From: Candidatus Schekmanbacteria bacterium | GTDB taxonomy: Bacteria > CSSED10-310 > JACPHN01 | DNA: 64,000 nucleotides | Assembly: GCA_016188575.1 (NCBI GenBank) | Contig: JACPHN010000068.1 | Coordinates: 1-64,000 of the forward strand | Direction: 5' to 3' | In this document: piece by piece, positions 51,200 to 58,620 of the stretch | Layout of the letters: each line of letters starts with the position of its first letter | Position numbering within the stretch: position 1 is the stretch's first letter | Notes under the pieces: generated by a model | Databases searched by the model: none | What the model was told of the DNA's origin: nothing | Seen by the model: the letters and a program-made list of their open reading frames with translations, nothing else | Program-made: the position numbers and the translations under genes

Positions 51200-51497
51200 G
51201 GCGGTTGCGTCTTTGTTGGTCGTAGCGGTTCTGGATATGGGATGCCCTGCTGACGGGAAGAGGGAACGCTGATAGACTACTGCCGTGCAGGCGGGGTTCG
51301 CCGCGTCCCCGCCGCCGCCAGCTTTGGGAGCGGAAAAGCGGGTGCGCGAGCAAGCCGGCCGACGCTGCACTAGCAAACTCCGTGCCGTGCCGAATGCGCG
51401 AGCAAGGGGATGGTTGTCATACGGCTGGCGACCGGGGAGGGTTTTTGATGCAGCGCGAAGTAATGATTACGGCGGACGTAACCACGGAGCGGTGGCC

Positions 51498-53198
51498 GTG
51501 ACCTCGCTTGCCGAACAGCTCGACGTAGATTACGAAGCGCTCTGGCACGGGCTACGACGGTTTGTATCCCGAATTGCCAACGCGCTTGATCTCGACACGG
51601 CGCTGGAACACTGTCTGGACGCGCTGATCGATATTCTCGGCGCCGATCGCGGGATGATCTGGTGCCTGACGCGCGACGGCACGCCGTATCCGGTGCATGG
51701 GCGCCGCCTGGGCCGGCGCCTGGACCCGCTGGAGCAGGCCCAGATCTCGGAGACGACGGTGCGCAGCGTGCTGCAGTCCGGGGAGTTCTTGCTCAACGAT
51801 CTCGCGGCGGTTGAGGGGAGCGAGAGCTTTCGCGCTTTCGGTATCGTTGGGGTGCTCGCCGGGCCGCTTCGCCGGCTGTCGCAGCTTGAGGGGACCGCGA
51901 CCCCGCTGGCCGCCCAGAGCCCCTCACCAACGACGCCGCGCGGCGTGGTCTACGTCGACTTCCGCGAACCGCAGAAGATCCTGGCACCGCCGCACTTTGA
52001 CTTTTTTCGCGCCGCCGTCGACCAGATCGCCATTGCTCTGGACCACAACGAGCTACTCGCGACAGTGCGGGCGATGACCCCGATGCTCGAGTTCGAACGT
52101 AGTCACCTGGCGGATCAGAGCTGCGCGCCGTCGCTCGCCGACCTGCTGGCGCCGCCGAGCATGGTGGAGCTCCGGCGCACGCTGTTGCCGGCGGTGCCGA
52201 CGAACACGCCGATTCTCATTCTCGGGGAGTCGGGGACGGGCAAGACCCACCTCGCGCGCGCCATCGCCAACGCCAGCAATCACCCGCGACCGTTCGTGCG
52301 CGTGAATCTGGGACGGGGATCGGATCGAAACACGGCGGTTTCGGAGCTCTTCGGGCACGTGCGCGGCGCCTATACGGGCGCCGCCGGGATGCGGATCGGC
52401 AAGGCCGAGCAGGCAGACGGTGGCACGCTTTTTCTCGATGAGGTGCTCAACCTGCCAATCGACGTCCAGCCACTGCTGCTCGATCTGTTGCAGGACGGCA
52501 CCTATGAACCGCTGGGCTGGAGTCTGCCGACACCGAAGCAGGTTCAGGTGCGGGTCATCGCGGCCACGAATGGGAGTATCGAAGCGGCGCTGCGCGACAA
52601 CCTCCTGCGCGCAGACGTTTATTATCGACTGGCCGGTACCGTGATCGACCTCCCACCGCTGCGCGCGCGGCGGCGCGACGTGCCGATGATTGCGGAGCAG
52701 TATCTGCGGGCCTGTCTGCCAAGGCGCAACTGGGTGATCGCGGCTTCCTTGCGCGAGTACCTGATGGATCCAGCACACCACTGGCAGGGAAACATCCGTC
52801 AGCTCCAGCACCTGATGGACCGCGCGGCGGCCCGGGCACTCGCGGCGGACCGTGAGGCGACAACCGTCACGCGCGCGCATGTCGAGGGACTCGAGAGCAG
52901 CGCCGGCGCAGCTCGACTGGAGGTCGGCGATCCGGGACAGGCGCCCGCGGCGGGCAAACCGCTGCTTGACCCCGCTCAGCCAGGCGCATCGTTTACCCGC
53001 ATCCGCAAGCAACGCGACCTTCTCGACGCCGCCGAGGCGGAGCTGATCCGGGACGCCCTGCAGCGTCACAACGGAGTCGTGTCGTGGGCCGCGGAAGAGC
53101 TCGGCATGCCCTACACGGGATTCCTGAGCCGCGCCAGGACGCTCGGAATCGACCGCGCCACGCGGCGGCGGAGCCGGCGGATCACCGAGGGGACCTGA
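51498..53198 (+). CDS. GAF-domain sigma-54-dependent transcriptional activator
   Basis: The protein has 566 residues from the GTG at 51498 with GGAG eight bases upstream; the frame is open to 51285. An N-terminal GAF domain (about 15-190, DLDTALEHCLDALIDILGADRGMIW) precedes an AAA+ domain: Walker A LILGESGTGKTHLA, the sigma-54-contact loop GHVRGAYTGAAG (Tyr for the usual Phe), Walker B GGTLFLDEVLNLP and the sensor region. A Fis-type HTH closes it (LIRDALQRHNGVVSWAAEELGMPYTGFLSRARTLG). There is no receiver domain. It is three bases upstream of the kinase-ATPase gene, so kinase and activator are probably one pathway. Confidence 0.92.
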   Translation: MTSLAEQLDVDYEALWHGLRRFVSRIANALDLDTALEHCLDALIDILGADRGMIWCLTRDGTPYPVHGRRLGRRLDPLEQAQISETTVRSVLQSGEFLLNDLAAVEGSESFRAFGIVGVLAGPLRRLSQLEGTATPLAAQSPSPTTPRGVVYVDFREPQKILAPPHFDFFRAAVDQIAIALDHNELLATVRAMTPMLEFERSHLADQSCAPSLADLLAPPSMVELRRTLLPAVPTNTPILILGESGTGKTHLARAIANASNHPRPFVRVNLGRGSDRNTAVSELFGHVRGAYTGAAGMRIGKAEQADGGTLFLDEVLNLPIDVQPLLLDLLQDGTYEPLGWSLPTPKQVQVRVIAATNGSIEAALRDNLLRADVYYRLAGTVIDLPPLRARRRDVPMIAEQYLRACLPRRNWVIAASLREYLMDPAHHWQGNIRQLQHLMDRAAARALAADREATTVTRAHVEGLESSAGAARLEVGDPGQAPAAGKPLLDPAQPGASFTRIRKQRDLLDAAEAELIRDALQRHNGVVSWAAEELGMPYTGFLSRARTLGIDRATRRRSRRITEGT

Positions 53199-53201
53199 GC
53201 C

Positions 53202-56200
53202 ATGATCGGTCGTCAGCTCGGCCCGTACCGACTGCTCGAGCGCCTCGGCATGGGAGGCGAGGGAATCGTCTTCCTGGGAGCGCGAGACGCAGATGGGGAG
53301 CGCGCTGCTGTAAAGCTCCTGCGGCACCAATCCGCGGCCTCGGCGGCGGCAATCTGCAGGGAAATTCGCATCCTGGCCCGGATCTCCCACCCGCAAGTCA
53401 TTCGCATCCTCGACCACGGCATCGCGCAGGGATCGCCCTGGTACGCGACTCCATACGTCCAGGGCGACAACCTGGTCGCGCACGTCCGCCGGAGCTGGCA
53501 CCCCGCCATCACGGCGCGTAGCGCGTCGGGCGTTGCGACCACGGAGCGCCACCTGCCCGCGGCAGGCGGTGCCGACCTCGCACCGGAATCGCTCGGCCGC
53601 GCCCCCGACAGCGCCGAAATCCCCCGCGCTGAGCTCGCCCACGTGCTCCGCCTCGTCCGCCTGCTGTGCGGGCCGCTCGCGCACCTCCACGGCGAGGGGA
53701 TCGTGCATCGCGACATCAAACCGGGCAATATTCTGGTGACGCGCGAGGGCCTTCCGATCCTGCTGGACTTCGGTCTGGTTGCTCGGTTTCCGGGCGCGGA
53801 GGGGCGGGAAGCGCTCGACGACGTCGCCCCGAGCGGGACCATAAGCTACATGGCGCCCGAGCAGATCCGCGGCGACCTGGTGGATCCGCGGGCCGATCTG
53901 TACGCTCTTGGCTGCGTTCTCTATGAGCTCATTGCGGGCAGGCCTCCGTTTCGCGGCAGCGCGGATGCTTCTGTCATCAAGATGCACTTGACGCAGGAGC
54001 CGTTACCGCTGTCCCGCCTCGTTTCAGGTGTAGGCCCTGAGCTAGACGAGCTCGTCCGGAGGCTCCTCGTCAAACGCGCCTCCGATCGCCTTGGCTATGC
54101 GGAAGACGTCGCCGTGCTACTGGGCGCGCTGGAGGGCACGCGTCCCACGGAGCCGCCCGAACCGCCCCGCGGCCGGCCGTACGTCCACCGTTCGGGGTTC
54201 GTGGGGCGGGGGGAGGCGCTGCAGGTGCTGCACGCGAGCCTCGACCGCGCCGACTATGGAAACGGTCAGCTCTTGCTCGTGGGCGGGGAGAGCGGTGCCG
54301 GAAAGACGCGGACACTTCTCGAGCTCGCCCGGGCAGCGACGCGTAGAGGGTTTCGGGTGCTGGCGGCGCATTGTGACGTGGACCTGGAAGGCGGCGAGGT
54401 GCGGCACCCTGCGGCAACCGCGGCGAGTCCCATCGGCACGCTGCTCGGAGCCATTGCTGATCAATGCCGTGCCGTGGGCACGGCGCCGGCCGCGCTGCTT
54501 GGCCGCCACGCGGCCGTGCTCGCCCAGCTTGACACCTCATTGGCGGAACGCGGCGCCGTCGCGGGCACGGCGGAGCTCGAGCTGCTGCCGCCGCAGTTTA
54601 GTCGCATCCGGCTTCTCGCGGCGCTTGGAGCTGCCCTGGAGAAGCTGGCCGAGCGACAACCGCTCCTTTTCCTGGTCGACGACCTGCAGTGGGCGGACGA
54701 GCTGACGGTTGGGTTTGCATCTTACGCGCATGCCTCGGGGGTGCTGGAGAGCATTCCCTGTGTGCTCGCCTGCGCCTACCGTACCGAAGAATGCTCGCCA
54801 CAGATCGCCGCGCTGCTCGGCGCCGCGCGATCAGCCGCGTTCGTCCTCAATCGCCTGCAAGAGCGCGACGTGGAGTCGATGGTCAAGGACATTCTCGCCG
54901 TGCGGAGCGCGCCGCCGGACCTGGCCGCGTACGTGTGGAGGCAATCCGAAGGAAACCCGCTGTTTGTCGCCGAATACCTCCGCACCGCGGTGGAGGAAGC
55001 GCTGTTGGTGAGACCTCCAGGAGGGGCGTGGAGCACGCCAGAAATCACCGGCGCGGCGGGGGAGACAGTCGACTGGGAGCAGGCGATCGCACTTCCGCGA
55101 ACGCTTCGCGAGCTGCTCAGCCGCCGTCTCCGAACGCTGTCGATCGCGGCGCGGCGCCTGGTCGACGTCCTGGCGGTATGCGGTCGCGAGGCCGACGTGT
55201 CGCTGCTCGTGGCAGCCGGCGGCATGGCGGATAGCGAGGTCAGCGTCGCGTTGGCGGAGGCGCGGCGGCGCCACCTGCTCGAAGACACGCCGGCACCAGC
55301 GACGCTGCGCTTTGCACACGACAAGATCCGGGAAGTGGCGCTCGCCGAGCTTGACAACGAACGCCGGCGAGCCTTCCACTTTCAGGTGGCGGAAGAGCTG
55401 TCCAGGCGACTCGCCGGCGGCGAACAAGTATCCGAGCTGGCGCTCGCGCGGCATTGGGCAGCGGGAGGAGAGCCGGAACGGGCCCGCCCCTTGTTCCTCG
55501 CAGCCGCGGCCAAAGCCACCCAGCGGTATGCGCTGAGCGAAGGAGAGGCAGCGTACGAGGGATACCTGGCGCTGGCGCTCGATCGGCCCGTGGAGCGCGC
55601 GGCGGCCCTTCTTGACAACGCGCGGCGAGTACAGATGATCAGGGGCCGCATGGAGAAGGCCCGTGAGATGCTCGAGGCATCCATCCACCTGGCGCGGGAG
55701 CACGCGGCGGACGAGCTCGCGGCACGGGGCCTGGGGGCTCTGGGCTCGGTGCTGGCCGCTCTCGGAGAGGTGGAAGCCGCGCGGGAAGCGTTTTCCGAGG
55801 CGCTGGCCTCCATCCGCAGGTGTGGCAACCGCGATGTCGAAGGCCAGCTCCTCCACAACCTGGCCAAAGTTCACGTCGATGCGGGCGAGCTCGACGCGGC
55901 ACGGGAGCTGTGCCACGAGGCGCTGGCGATCCAGCGCGGCAGCGGCAATCGTTCGGCCGAGGCCGTGGTGCTTTCCACGCTCGGCGTGATCGAGCACGAA
56001 ATGGGCGCGGTGGAAGCGGCGGCGCAGTTGAATGAAGACGCGTTGCGCATCCACCGTGCCCTCGGCAATCTCCGCTGCGAAGCGCTCCTGCTCAACAATC
56101 TGGGCGTCCTCGCCATGGAGGGTTCCGCCCTCGAAAAGGCGCGCGAGCTGCTTGGACGCGCGCTTGCACTGGCCAGGCGCGTCGCGGACCGGACGCTGGA

Positions 56201-56771
56201 AGCCGAAACCTTGGAGAGCCTGGCAACGTGCCTGCTCGAGCTTGGGTTACACCGCGAGGGGGCGGAGGCGATCCAGGGGGCGGTCGCGGCGGCGCGTGGC
56301 GTGTGTACCCGGCATCGGCAGCTCGAGATGCGGGCGCGGATGGCGGAGATCGCAAACGCCGCGGGTAATCCGGAAGAAGCGGGGAGGGTCGCCGGCGACG
56401 CGGCTGGCGAAGCGCGGGAGGCGGGCAACGAACGCGCCGAAGCGCTCGCGTTGTGTCAGGTGGCAATTGCCGCGGCGGCGCGTGGCCGGGAGGTGGAAGT
56501 GGACGGCGCTCTGCAGAGGCTGCTCGCACTGCTCCCGAAGCTGGCGGATCGACGTCTTGTGGCGCAGGTCTTGCTGGCTGCCGCTCGCGCCGCACGCGTT
56601 CGCGATGGCGGCTTCGAGCGCGCCGGACCGTGGGCGGAAGAGGCACACAGACTCTTTGCGGCAACCGGGCAGGCGCTGTACCAGGCGCTCGCCGCGGGCA
56701 TTGCCACCGCCGCAGGCCGCCCGGCGCCGGCGGCCGGCCCTTGTGTCCAGCCCCACTCGCCGCTAGGCTAA
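53202..56771 (+). CDS. Ser/Thr kinase-AAA ATPase-TPR signalling protein (1189 residues)
   Basis: The kinase domain (1-310) is complete: LGMGGEGIVFLG, AAVKLL, HRDIKPGNILV, LDFGLVARF and YMAPEQIRG. It is interrupted by an Ala/Arg-rich insert of about 50 residues near 105-150. A STAND-type ATPase follows (about 330-700): VGRGEALQVLHASL, Walker A GGESGAGKTRTLLEL and Walker B LLFLVDDLQWADEL, with the arginine-rich winged-helix part after it. The rest (about 760-1170) is TPR repeats (LHNLAKVHVDAGELDAARELCHEALAIQ, LSTLGVIEHEMGAVEAAAQLNEDALRIH). Such proteins phosphorylate partner sigma-54 activators in myxobacteria; the activator gene three bases upstream fits this. No membrane helix. Confidence 0.93.
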   Translation: MIGRQLGPYRLLERLGMGGEGIVFLGARDADGERAAVKLLRHQSAASAAAICREIRILARISHPQVIRILDHGIAQGSPWYATPYVQGDNLVAHVRRSWHPAITARSASGVATTERHLPAAGGADLAPESLGRAPDSAEIPRAELAHVLRLVRLLCGPLAHLHGEGIVHRDIKPGNILVTREGLPILLDFGLVARFPGAEGREALDDVAPSGTISYMAPEQIRGDLVDPRADLYALGCVLYELIAGRPPFRGSADASVIKMHLTQEPLPLSRLVSGVGPELDELVRRLLVKRASDRLGYAEDVAVLLGALEGTRPTEPPEPPRGRPYVHRSGFVGRGEALQVLHASLDRADYGNGQLLLVGGESGAGKTRTLLELARAATRRGFRVLAAHCDVDLEGGEVRHPAATAASPIGTLLGAIADQCRAVGTAPAALLGRHAAVLAQLDTSLAERGAVAGTAELELLPPQFSRIRLLAALGAALEKLAERQPLLFLVDDLQWADELTVGFASYAHASGVLESIPCVLACAYRTEECSPQIAALLGAARSAAFVLNRLQERDVESMVKDILAVRSAPPDLAAYVWRQSEGNPLFVAEYLRTAVEEALLVRPPGGAWSTPEITGAAGETVDWEQAIALPRTLRELLSRRLRTLSIAARRLVDVLAVCGREADVSLLVAAGGMADSEVSVALAEARRRHLLEDTPAPATLRFAHDKIREVALAELDNERRRAFHFQVAEELSRRLAGGEQVSELALARHWAAGGEPERARPLFLAAAAKATQRYALSEGEAAYEGYLALALDRPVERAAALLDNARRVQMIRGRMEKAREMLEASIHLAREHAADELAARGLGALGSVLAALGEVEAAREAFSEALASIRRCGNRDVEGQLLHNLAKVHVDAGELDAARELCHEALAIQRGSGNRSAEAVVLSTLGVIEHEMGAVEAAAQLNEDALRIHRALGNLRCEALLLNNLGVLAMEGSALEKARELLGRALALARRVADRTLEAETLESLATCLLELGLHREGAEAIQGAVAAARGVCTRHRQLEMRARMAEIANAAGNPEEAGRVAGDAAGEAREAGNERAEALALCQVAIAAAARGREVEVDGALQRLLALLPKLADRRLVAQVLLAAARAARVRDGGFERAGPWAEEAHRLFAATGQALYQALAAGIATAAGRPAPAAGPCVQPHSPLG

Positions 56772-56808: not shown

Positions 56809-57606
56809 GTGGCACACATCGCCGACCTACCCATCGTTCTGCGCACCGCTCTGCGCCTGTACCCCTGGCGGCAGATCGCCGATCCAGTCCCCCTCACGGT
56901 GCTGCGCAAACCCATCACGGCCAGCACTGTGGCACTGGTCACCACCGCGGGGCTCGTCCGGCCCGGAGACGCGCCATTCGACGACGCGGTAGCCGGCGGC
57001 GACTACTCGTTCCGCGTGCTCCCGGCAACTACGGACGTTGCCGCGCTGGAGGAGCATCATCGCAGCGCTTCCTTTGATCACAGCGGCATCGCGCGGGACC
57101 CCAACCTCGCCTTCCCGCTCGACCGCTTGCGGGAAATGGCCGCGGAAGGCGCAATTGGAGCGGTGGCGCCGCGCCATCTGTCGTTCATGGGCTCGATTAC
57201 CGCGCCCGGGCGGCTCGTGCGCCGCACGGCGCCGGCGGCAGCAGCCTTGCTGGCGGCCGACGGAGTCGACATCGCGCTGCTGGTCCCCGTCTGACCCATG
57301 TGCAATCAGACCGTGGGTCTGATCCAGGCAGAGATAGAGCGCGCTGGCGTGACGACGGCTTCGATCAGCCTGATGCCGGAGATTACGGCGCGGGTTCGCC
57401 CACCACGCGCGCTCGCAGTCCCGTTTCCGCTCGGTTTCCCTCTCGGCAGGCCGCATGACGCCGCCGAGCAGAAGCGCGTCCTGAGAAACCTGCTCGCGCT
57501 TTGCGAACGTCGCGACGTGCCTGTGCTGGAGAGGCTCGACGCCGCCGAGGTCAGTGGCGAACAAGGGGAAGCCGAGGGCGTTTTCGATCCCGTGCCGAGC
57601 TTGTAA
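56809..57606 (+). CDS. GrdB-family selenoprotein (glycine/sarcosine/betaine reductase B-like), in-frame TGA as selenocysteine
   Basis: The GTG start gives [22 protein letters not shown]. The frame meets TGA at 57292-57294 after [15 protein letters not shown] and continues in the same frame for 103 more codons ([43 protein letters not shown]). Together they give 265 residues with U162-P-M-C165-N-Q-T168, the UxxCxxT motif of the GrdB family. Both sides of the TGA are conserved family sequence. A hairpin at 57305-57323 is placed as a bacterial SECIS. These short stand-alone homologues are thought to be redox proteins; the substrate is unknown. It starts 37 bp after the kinase gene and has a weak ribosome site. 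selA/selB/selC are not in the window. Confidence 0.88.
57305..57323 (+). promoter_or_regulatory. Putative bacterial SECIS element
   Basis: ATCAGACC and GGTCTGAT form a perfect 8-bp stem with the loop GTG (57313-57315). The loop begins 18 bases after the TGA, inside the 16-37 window known for bacterial SECIS elements, and starts with the expected G. It lies within the coding sequence, as bacterial SECIS elements do, and should bind SelB. Confidence 0.75.
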
Positions 57607-57648: not shown

Positions 57649-58212
57649 CTAAACTCTTAGCGAGCCACGAAACCCCCTGGTACTATAGTAAGATTGTGCA
57701 CCGTTGTGATAAACGAAAACATGGTCGTAGCGACGATCACAAAAGAAGGCACCGCCGAGTTTTCTAATATCAGGAGGTGTTTTCACCCAGCTCGATGTTT
57801 TCGTGTCGAAGTCTCCAAGTTGCTGCAATCCTCGATATTGTTCCTCTGTCAATAGATCCAGGCCCATGGAAGTCGCCATATCAATAGCACTATTTTCTGG
57901 TCTATGTTCTTTCCTTGACTCCAGTCCTACACGATCGTAACAAATACTCCTGCGGCCTTCAGGACTTTCCAGTGAGCAATCATAAAAAATGTATTCGCCC
58001 GTCTCCTTATCATAACCAACAACATCCGGTTCACCGCCGGTTCTTTCCATTTCATTGAGCGACCACAGTTTTCCGGGATTATCTTCCAGCTTCTCTTGTA
58101 CTTTCATCCATTCTATACCGTTATGGCGATCCATGTTTTTATCAAACCTGGCTTTCAAGATTGTGAGTAATTCTCCGCGCTGCTTTTCATTCATGTTTGT
58201 AGCTTTGTGCAT
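57649..58212 (-). CDS. DUF4256 protein
   Basis: The protein has 187 residues from the ATG of MHKATNMNEKQ (AGAGG ten bases upstream); nearby TTG and ATG starts are possible. It shows the DUF4256 sequence from start to end: LLTILKARFDKNMDRH, GGEPDVVGYDKETGEYIFYD, RRSICYDRVGLESRKEHRP, LLTEEQYRGLQQLGDFDTKTSSW and LGGAFFCDRRYDHVFVYHNGAQSYYSTRGFRGSLRV. The function is unknown. Codon use is much more AT-rich than the neighbours, pointing to horizontal acquisition. It converges on the selenoprotein gene. Confidence 0.9.
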   Translation of the reverse strand: MHKATNMNEKQRGELLTILKARFDKNMDRHNGIEWMKVQEKLEDNPGKLWSLNEMERTGGEPDVVGYDKETGEYIFYDCSLESPEGRRSICYDRVGLESRKEHRPENSAIDMATSMGLDLLTEEQYRGLQQLGDFDTKTSSWVKTPPDIRKLGGAFFCDRRYDHVFVYHNGAQSYYSTRGFRGSLRV

Positions 58213-58620
58213 TACTGCCAATCCTCTTCGTCTCTATTCCATTAGCCTTTGCTCACCTGGCCTTCTTACGGCTTGCTCCTTCTGTTTATGTCCACGGTGA
58301 TCTGCATCTTGGGATTCGCTGACCGTAGACCAGAGATGTCGGCGTATTTCGCTTTTTTATCGCCATCGAGAACGCGTGTCAAGCCCCGCGGTGCGGCACG
58401 GGCTGCCAAGGACTTGCCACCACGCGGGGACTACCCTTGCATGACAGACCACCGCCGCCATACTCAGTACTGCAATCGGTGAACGGCACCCTTCAGCAGA
58501 AACGGCAGCGAACGTCGGCGAATGCAGAGACTACAGGACGACCCCGGCAACTTTTCGATTGCGCCGCGTCCAGCCAGCGGGCAGGTAGGCGCGGAGCTCG
58601 CTCCCGCCGAGGCGCGCGGC
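58213..58620. other. Divergent intergenic region, no gene supported
   Basis: This is 408 bp between the DUF4256 gene and the second sigma-54 activator. The left part is AT-rich like the DUF4256 gene; the right part returns to host composition near 58380, possibly marking the edge of the acquired segment. No attachment-site repeat, clear promoter or -24/-12 element was found. The activator frame is open from 58522 but without a ribosome site. Confidence 0.4.

Follow-up and report, generated by a model that had tools for sequence, protein, structure and literature searches.

A candidate stand-alone PrdB/GrdB-like selenoprotein gene with an in-frame TGA and a SECIS-type hairpin in Candidatus Schekmanbacteria

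Known selenoprotein reductases and the joined reading frame

PrdB is a 26-kDa clostridial selenoprotein and a subunit of D-proline reductase. In D-proline reductase and glycine reductase, the selenocysteine (Sec) subunit does not act alone; the amino substrate is bound by a partner that carries a pyruvoyl group. The PrdB/GrdB family with the UxxC motif is established (PMC1088965, PMC2398784, PMC9312934) and has been listed in selenoproteome surveys since 2005. In two of these surveys, the UxxC "proline reductase PrdB" is the third most abundant known selenoprotein family in the Sargasso Sea data (PMC1088965), and UxxC PrdB selenoproteins are among the most abundant in GOS (PMC2398784). About 40% of Sec-using organisms have been classed as aerobic (PMC5029168). 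A sequence-only reading of the locus described herein had called it an unrecognised selenoprotein of a known family. The second half of this description agrees with the surveys; the word "unrecognised" holds at most for the locus. As judged from its sequence, the gene is a PrdB/GrdB-family selenoprotein gene of a kind already known. The selenoprotein status itself is ordinary; what stands out is a widespread branch of the family without the usual partner enzyme.

The window, which is the whole stretch of 64,000 nucleotides that was analysed, belongs to an assembly of 9.2 Mb in 275 contigs (93.8% complete, 3.7% contaminated). Two open reading frames lie in the same frame on the forward strand, one at 56809-57294 (161 aa, terminating in TGA 57292-57294) and the other at 57298-57606 (102 aa), and only TGA CCC separates them. 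When the TGA is translated as Sec, the joined gene at 56809-57606 encodes 265 aa from the start GTG 56809 to the stop TAA 57604-57606, with UPMCNQT at residues 162-168 (U-x-x-C-x-x-T). No alternative start codon was found upstream of 56809 within the open frame, and GTG 56809 is aligned with the starts of the homologues. Within the UxxC motif, the conserved cysteine of resolving type, Cys165, is encoded at 57301-57303 and is invariant in the family alignments. The two same-phase frames, the coordinates and length of the joined product, and the motif are all as the sequence-only reading had described. Its expectation for standard gene calling also holds, since translation table 11 gives either a protein cut at 161 aa or two pieces. 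The locus is a clean example in which automatic ORF calling would drop over one third of a protein.

Relatives were collected by one scan of genome contigs, which gave 80 loci with 41-67% identity to the window protein. About ten phyla altogether are represented, among them Myxococcota, Acidobacteriota, Planctomycetota, Verrucomicrobiota, Poribacteria, Thermodesulfobacteriota, Nitrospirota, Chloroflexota, Gemmatimonadota, Latescibacterota and SAR324. The codon at the position of residue 162 is TGA in 79 of the 80 relatives (selenocysteine codon 162, forward strand) and TGC (Cys) in the remaining one (L039), with no TAA or TAG. Cys was also found in three further homologues (L114, L115 and L015). 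A conserved in-frame UGA with Cys in some homologues, by which selenoprotein genes are recognised, is therefore present. Downstream of this codon the frame is open for 81-125 codons in all 80 relatives. The conservation claimed for both sides of the stop was thus confirmed, and homologues that end at this TGA or change frame after it, which had been named as counter-evidence, were not seen among the 80. The region 56809-57606 is almost certainly a single gene in which TGA 57292-57294 is decoded as selenocysteine.

A restart of translation at ATG 57298 was considered and rejected. At position +2 from Sec, 48 of the 80 relatives carry Met and the other 32 carry V, I, L, T or F, so that this ATG is not a conserved restart.

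The SECIS-type hairpin and the selenocysteine machinery

A bSECIS-type hairpin is located at 57305-57323 on the forward strand, with the sequence ATCAGACC-GTG-GGTCTGAT. The stem has 8 perfect pairs, 7 of which are conserved or covarying in the family, and the spacing from the end of the TGA to the first loop base is exactly 18 nt. Stem, loop and spacing match what had been described from the letters alone. The G and U of the apical loop at 57313-57314 are invariant in the family. The arrangement is that of a selenoprotein gene, with a bSECIS stem-loop directly 3' of the UGA and a G in the apical loop.

The hairpin is unremarkable by energy alone, with z between -1.2 and 0 against dinucleotide shuffles. 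In silico folding of an isolated 42-mer gave -10.4 kcal/mol for the hairpin and -12.6 kcal/mol for a competing helix of 8 bp in which the GA of the TGA takes part. The competing helix is missing from the folds of stretches that start downstream of the UGA. Synonymous recoding of the seven codons (NQTVGLI) gave an equally good fold in 106 of 20,000 cases (0.5%). An Rfam scan of the stretch returned chance matches only, and no Rfam family matches the hairpin.

Covariation was measured on 63 distinct elements, which were compared with 500 shuffles. The percentage of paired cells was 98.2% versus 86.8% in the shuffles, and the number of compensatory (double-sided) cells was 52 versus 17. The covariation score was 0.383 versus 0.157, a value reached by 0 of the 500 shuffles. 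Sliding the pairing partner left only 9.5-48% of the cells paired. Within the hairpin, the third position of a near-invariant Gly codon is matched to the opening base of a Ser/Thr/Ala codon, a pairing kept in 74 of 75 distinct elements through the combinations ACN with GGT, TCN with GGA/GGG, and GCN with GGC. As far as the codons tell, this pairing cannot stem from selection on the protein. Among the Sec genes of the family the hairpin has a mean of -9.2 kcal/mol. The Cys homologues L039, L114, L115 and L015 keep 3-4 of 7 pairs at -1 to -2 kcal/mol, and by these values all four have lost the hairpin. The hairpin is far above chance because it is conserved and covarying in the relatives, and not by its folding energy. 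These data support a SECIS hairpin that lies at the proper position and is real in evolutionary terms.

The genes for selenocysteine incorporation were searched in the source genome, as the sequence-only reading had proposed, and all four were found. The tRNA-Sec (selC) scored 76.8 bits with the anticodon tca, selA and selB are both present, and selD was detected above the cut-off with an in-frame TGA of its own in the motif CAGU. A lack of selB and selC, which would have spoken against Sec decoding, is not the case here. Similarly, selA was above the cut-off in 45 of the 49 genomes bearing the PrdB-like family. As a separate observation, the selD of the source genome (G000:C166:25456-26379, L030) is itself a selenoprotein gene.

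Family placement, partner subunits and predicted function

The Pfam family GRDB (PF07355) was matched with 40.3 bits against a gathering threshold of 22, and only profile positions 212-345, towards the C-terminus, were covered. The best NCBIfam model was PrdB TIGR04483 (E 5.5e-37, 127.5 bits, 206 residues aligned), and the window protein falls below its curated cut-off of 300 bits. The GrdB models gave E 1e-12 to 5e-16, far below their cut-offs. All 42 of the 42 aligned family members match the PrdB model, with a best E of 1.6e-57. The earlier term "GrdB-type" is thus right for the Pfam family and misplaced within it, where the protein is nearer to PrdB than to GrdB.

In the phylogenetic tree, GrdB, PrdB (L113, L116 and L117) and the window group fall apart. 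The window protein is placed within a clade of 45 rows (SH-aLRT 100), beside Myxococcota and uncultured relatives. The PrdB proteins form one clade with a support of 97, and GrdB is set off from the window group by a fully supported, very long branch. The motif also differs by clade: PVUPxC[NH]Q in the window clade, UG[ILT]CNQ in its sister clade, and AGUGTCHR in the PrdB proteins with an adjacent PrdA (L113 and L116).

Like PrdB, the window protein is a single domain of about 240 residues whose UxxC motif puts Sec at the corresponding position. Unlike PrdB, it stays below the family cut-off, carries UPxCNQ instead of UGTCHR, belongs to a separate clade and is not accompanied by PrdA. The C-terminal half of GrdB/GrdF/GrdH (PF07355, TIGR01918), including UxxC, is homologous to it. 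However, those proteins are about 430 aa in full length, and the window protein lacks their N-terminal half, GrdA and the pyruvoyl subunit. The Sargasso Sea and GOS selenoproteins recorded as "PrdB, pfam07355, UxxC" (PMC1088965, PMC2398784) share the Pfam family and the motif. The window clade is not split off in the available portions of these surveys, however, and there the D-proline reductase function is attached by homology. The PrdB sequences of the surveys may well include the UPxC[NH]Q clade.

PrdA was not found in the source genome by profile search, an absence that is not absolute in an assembly 93.8% complete. It was above the cut-off in none of the 48 other family genomes, three of which gave weak partial matches of 22-33 bits. 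The same search scored 925 bits in Ligilactobacillus salivarius, the positive control. The pyruvoyl subunit PF09338 was likewise not found in the source genome and was absent in 35 of 36 family genomes, with positive controls. GrdA was likewise not found in the incomplete source assembly, and its controls were positive in two GrdB-bearing genomes. Because PrdA, GrdA and the pyruvoyl subunit are absent, the protein is not a D-proline or glycine reductase as known. Judged by gene content, the function usually attached ("proline reductase") is not supported for the window branch. With the partner missing wherever it was looked for, the widespread clade cannot be a proline reductase as known; a doubtful transferred function becomes correctable, and the question of the real function becomes testable.

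A side observation was made on a Peptoclostridium acidaminophilum plasmid (L113:3630-5651), where a prdA-like gene and prdB form one frame with no stop between them, giving 674 aa when the TGA is read through. The gene table there lists prdB alone. The frame can be read as a PrdA-PrdB fusion or as a sequencing slip.

AlphaFold was used to predict the structure of the joined protein, and one confident domain was obtained that continues through residue 162 (pLDDT 93.9, pTM 0.90). The PDB (up to April 2026) held no match by sequence profile, and the fold search gave nothing at E <= 0.001, with a top TM of 0.31. Since the comparison with the PDB gave no significant match, fold analogy yields no function. 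The PrdB/GrdB-type domain appears to be without a solved representative.

The best explanation, to which we give a probability of roughly 0.88, is a Sec-decoded, stand-alone PrdB/GrdB-like redox enzyme of 265 residues with Sec162 and Cys165, located in the cytosol and having no pyruvoyl partner. SelB with Sec-tRNA(Sec) would bind the hairpin at 57305-57323, and the ribosome would read UGA 57292-57294 as selenocysteine. The product would be a single-domain protein, presumably cytosolic, in which Sec162 and Cys165 would form the UxxC redox pair of a putative selenol reductase. In the predicted cycle, Sec162 would attack a small substrate, the resulting intermediate would be resolved by Cys165 with formation of a selenenyl-sulfide, and a thiol system of the cell would then restore the enzyme. 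The enzyme would probably act alone, with no partner subunit. As there is no pyruvoyl partner, amines activated through a Schiff base are not expected as substrates. The sequence evidence establishes, or nearly establishes, the Sec decoding, the family, the motif and the absence of the partner genes. The redox role of Sec162/Cys165 is most likely, as the UxxC motif and homology suggest. We see an even chance that the UPxC[NH]Q clade is a separate enzyme family, a pyruvoyl-independent selenol reductase found in about ten phyla and filed as proline reductase, whose substrate is maybe a metalloid or another small molecule. Such a substrate is hinted at by the sister clade with UG[ILT]C, which is found next to genes for metal handling and inside an arsenosugar operon.

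Rival readings and the gene neighbourhood

A mechanical ORF list splits the locus as if the TGA were an ordinary stop at 161 aa. The downstream frame would then be a gene of its own, with translation starting again at ATG 57298, three bases past the TGA, or else the whole gene would be a recent pseudogene. This reading has to face a sequence conserved before as well as after the TGA, the lack of TAA and TAG in all 80 relatives, Cys in the same column of homologues, the covariation of the hairpin and one continuous predicted domain, and it is extremely improbable. Similarly, the match to Pfam GRDB, confined to the C-terminal positions 212-345 of the profile, would fit a fragment or stand-alone form of GrdB, the B component of glycine/sarcosine/betaine reductase. 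However, the protein lacks the N-terminal half of GrdB, the GrdB scores are far below their cut-offs, GrdA was found in two GrdB-bearing genomes and not here, and a fully supported branch lies between them, which leaves this form hardly credible. The protein could also be a genuine PrdB that serves D-proline reductase as its Sec subunit, since PrdB (TIGR04483) is the closest named family and pfam07355 UxxC sequences are filed as "proline reductase" in the surveys (PMC1088965, PMC2398784). This assignment is very unlikely given a score of 127.5 bits where the cut-off is 300, a clade separate from the PrdB that has PrdA, and UPxC[NH]Q against UGTCHR; neither the source genome nor the 48 others gave PrdA above the cut-off, and PF09338 is lacking in 35 of 36.

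The gene context raises another reading, in which the protein belongs to a sigma-54/kinase signalling operon and serves that system as effector or as redox sensor. A GAF-sigma54 activator-Fis HTH regulator (51285-53198, forward strand) is followed after 3 nt by a Ser/Thr kinase-AAA-TPR protein (53202-56771, forward strand), which ends 37 nt before the selenoprotein start. All three genes are on one strand, the kinase and the selenoprotein gene could be co-transcribed, and the clostridial prd operon is sigma-54 regulated through PrdR (PMC6615313). However, the activator/kinase pair is beside the gene in no relative; a related kinase was seen only at L034, about 2.7 kb upstream. The window holds no more sigma-54 promoter-like matches than chance predicts (11 versus 11.1 expected). 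A signalling role is therefore unlikely, and the neighbourhood is probably incidental. The sequence-only reading had held this context to be notable; as the arrangement is not conserved, it gives no clue to the function of the putative stand-alone redox enzyme.

Clustering of the neighbours over all loci identified GFO/IDH/MocA dehydrogenases in Poribacteria as the sole strongly recurrent partner. At most Poribacteria loci (L063, L065, L068 and others), dehydrogenases of this type flank the gene on one or both sides, often directly, and 28 loci fall into one cluster. The adjacent genes elsewhere are a mixture that includes MsrB, OsmC, nitroreductase, carotenoid synthesis, pyrophosphatase and FTHFS. 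Because the neighbours outside Poribacteria are not conserved, no substrate can be deduced from context.

In a Nitrospirae MAG (L107:5483-8521), a PrdB-like UGTC selenoprotein is located within an arsenosugar operon, in the order TIGR04169 peroxidase-like protein, ArsS (TIGR04167), selenoprotein and TIGR04283 arsenosugar glycosyltransferase. Among other loci of the UG[ILT]C sister clade, L102 adjoins an ArsR-methyltransferase pair and L111 adjoins a copper-type ATPase and a methyltransferase. The arsenosugar and metal context of the sister clade is a lead and not a result.

Directly after the selenoprotein gene of the window, a DUF4256 gene is found at 57649-58221 on the reverse strand. Its G+C content is 44-50% within a region of 70% G+C, and it was likely acquired from elsewhere.
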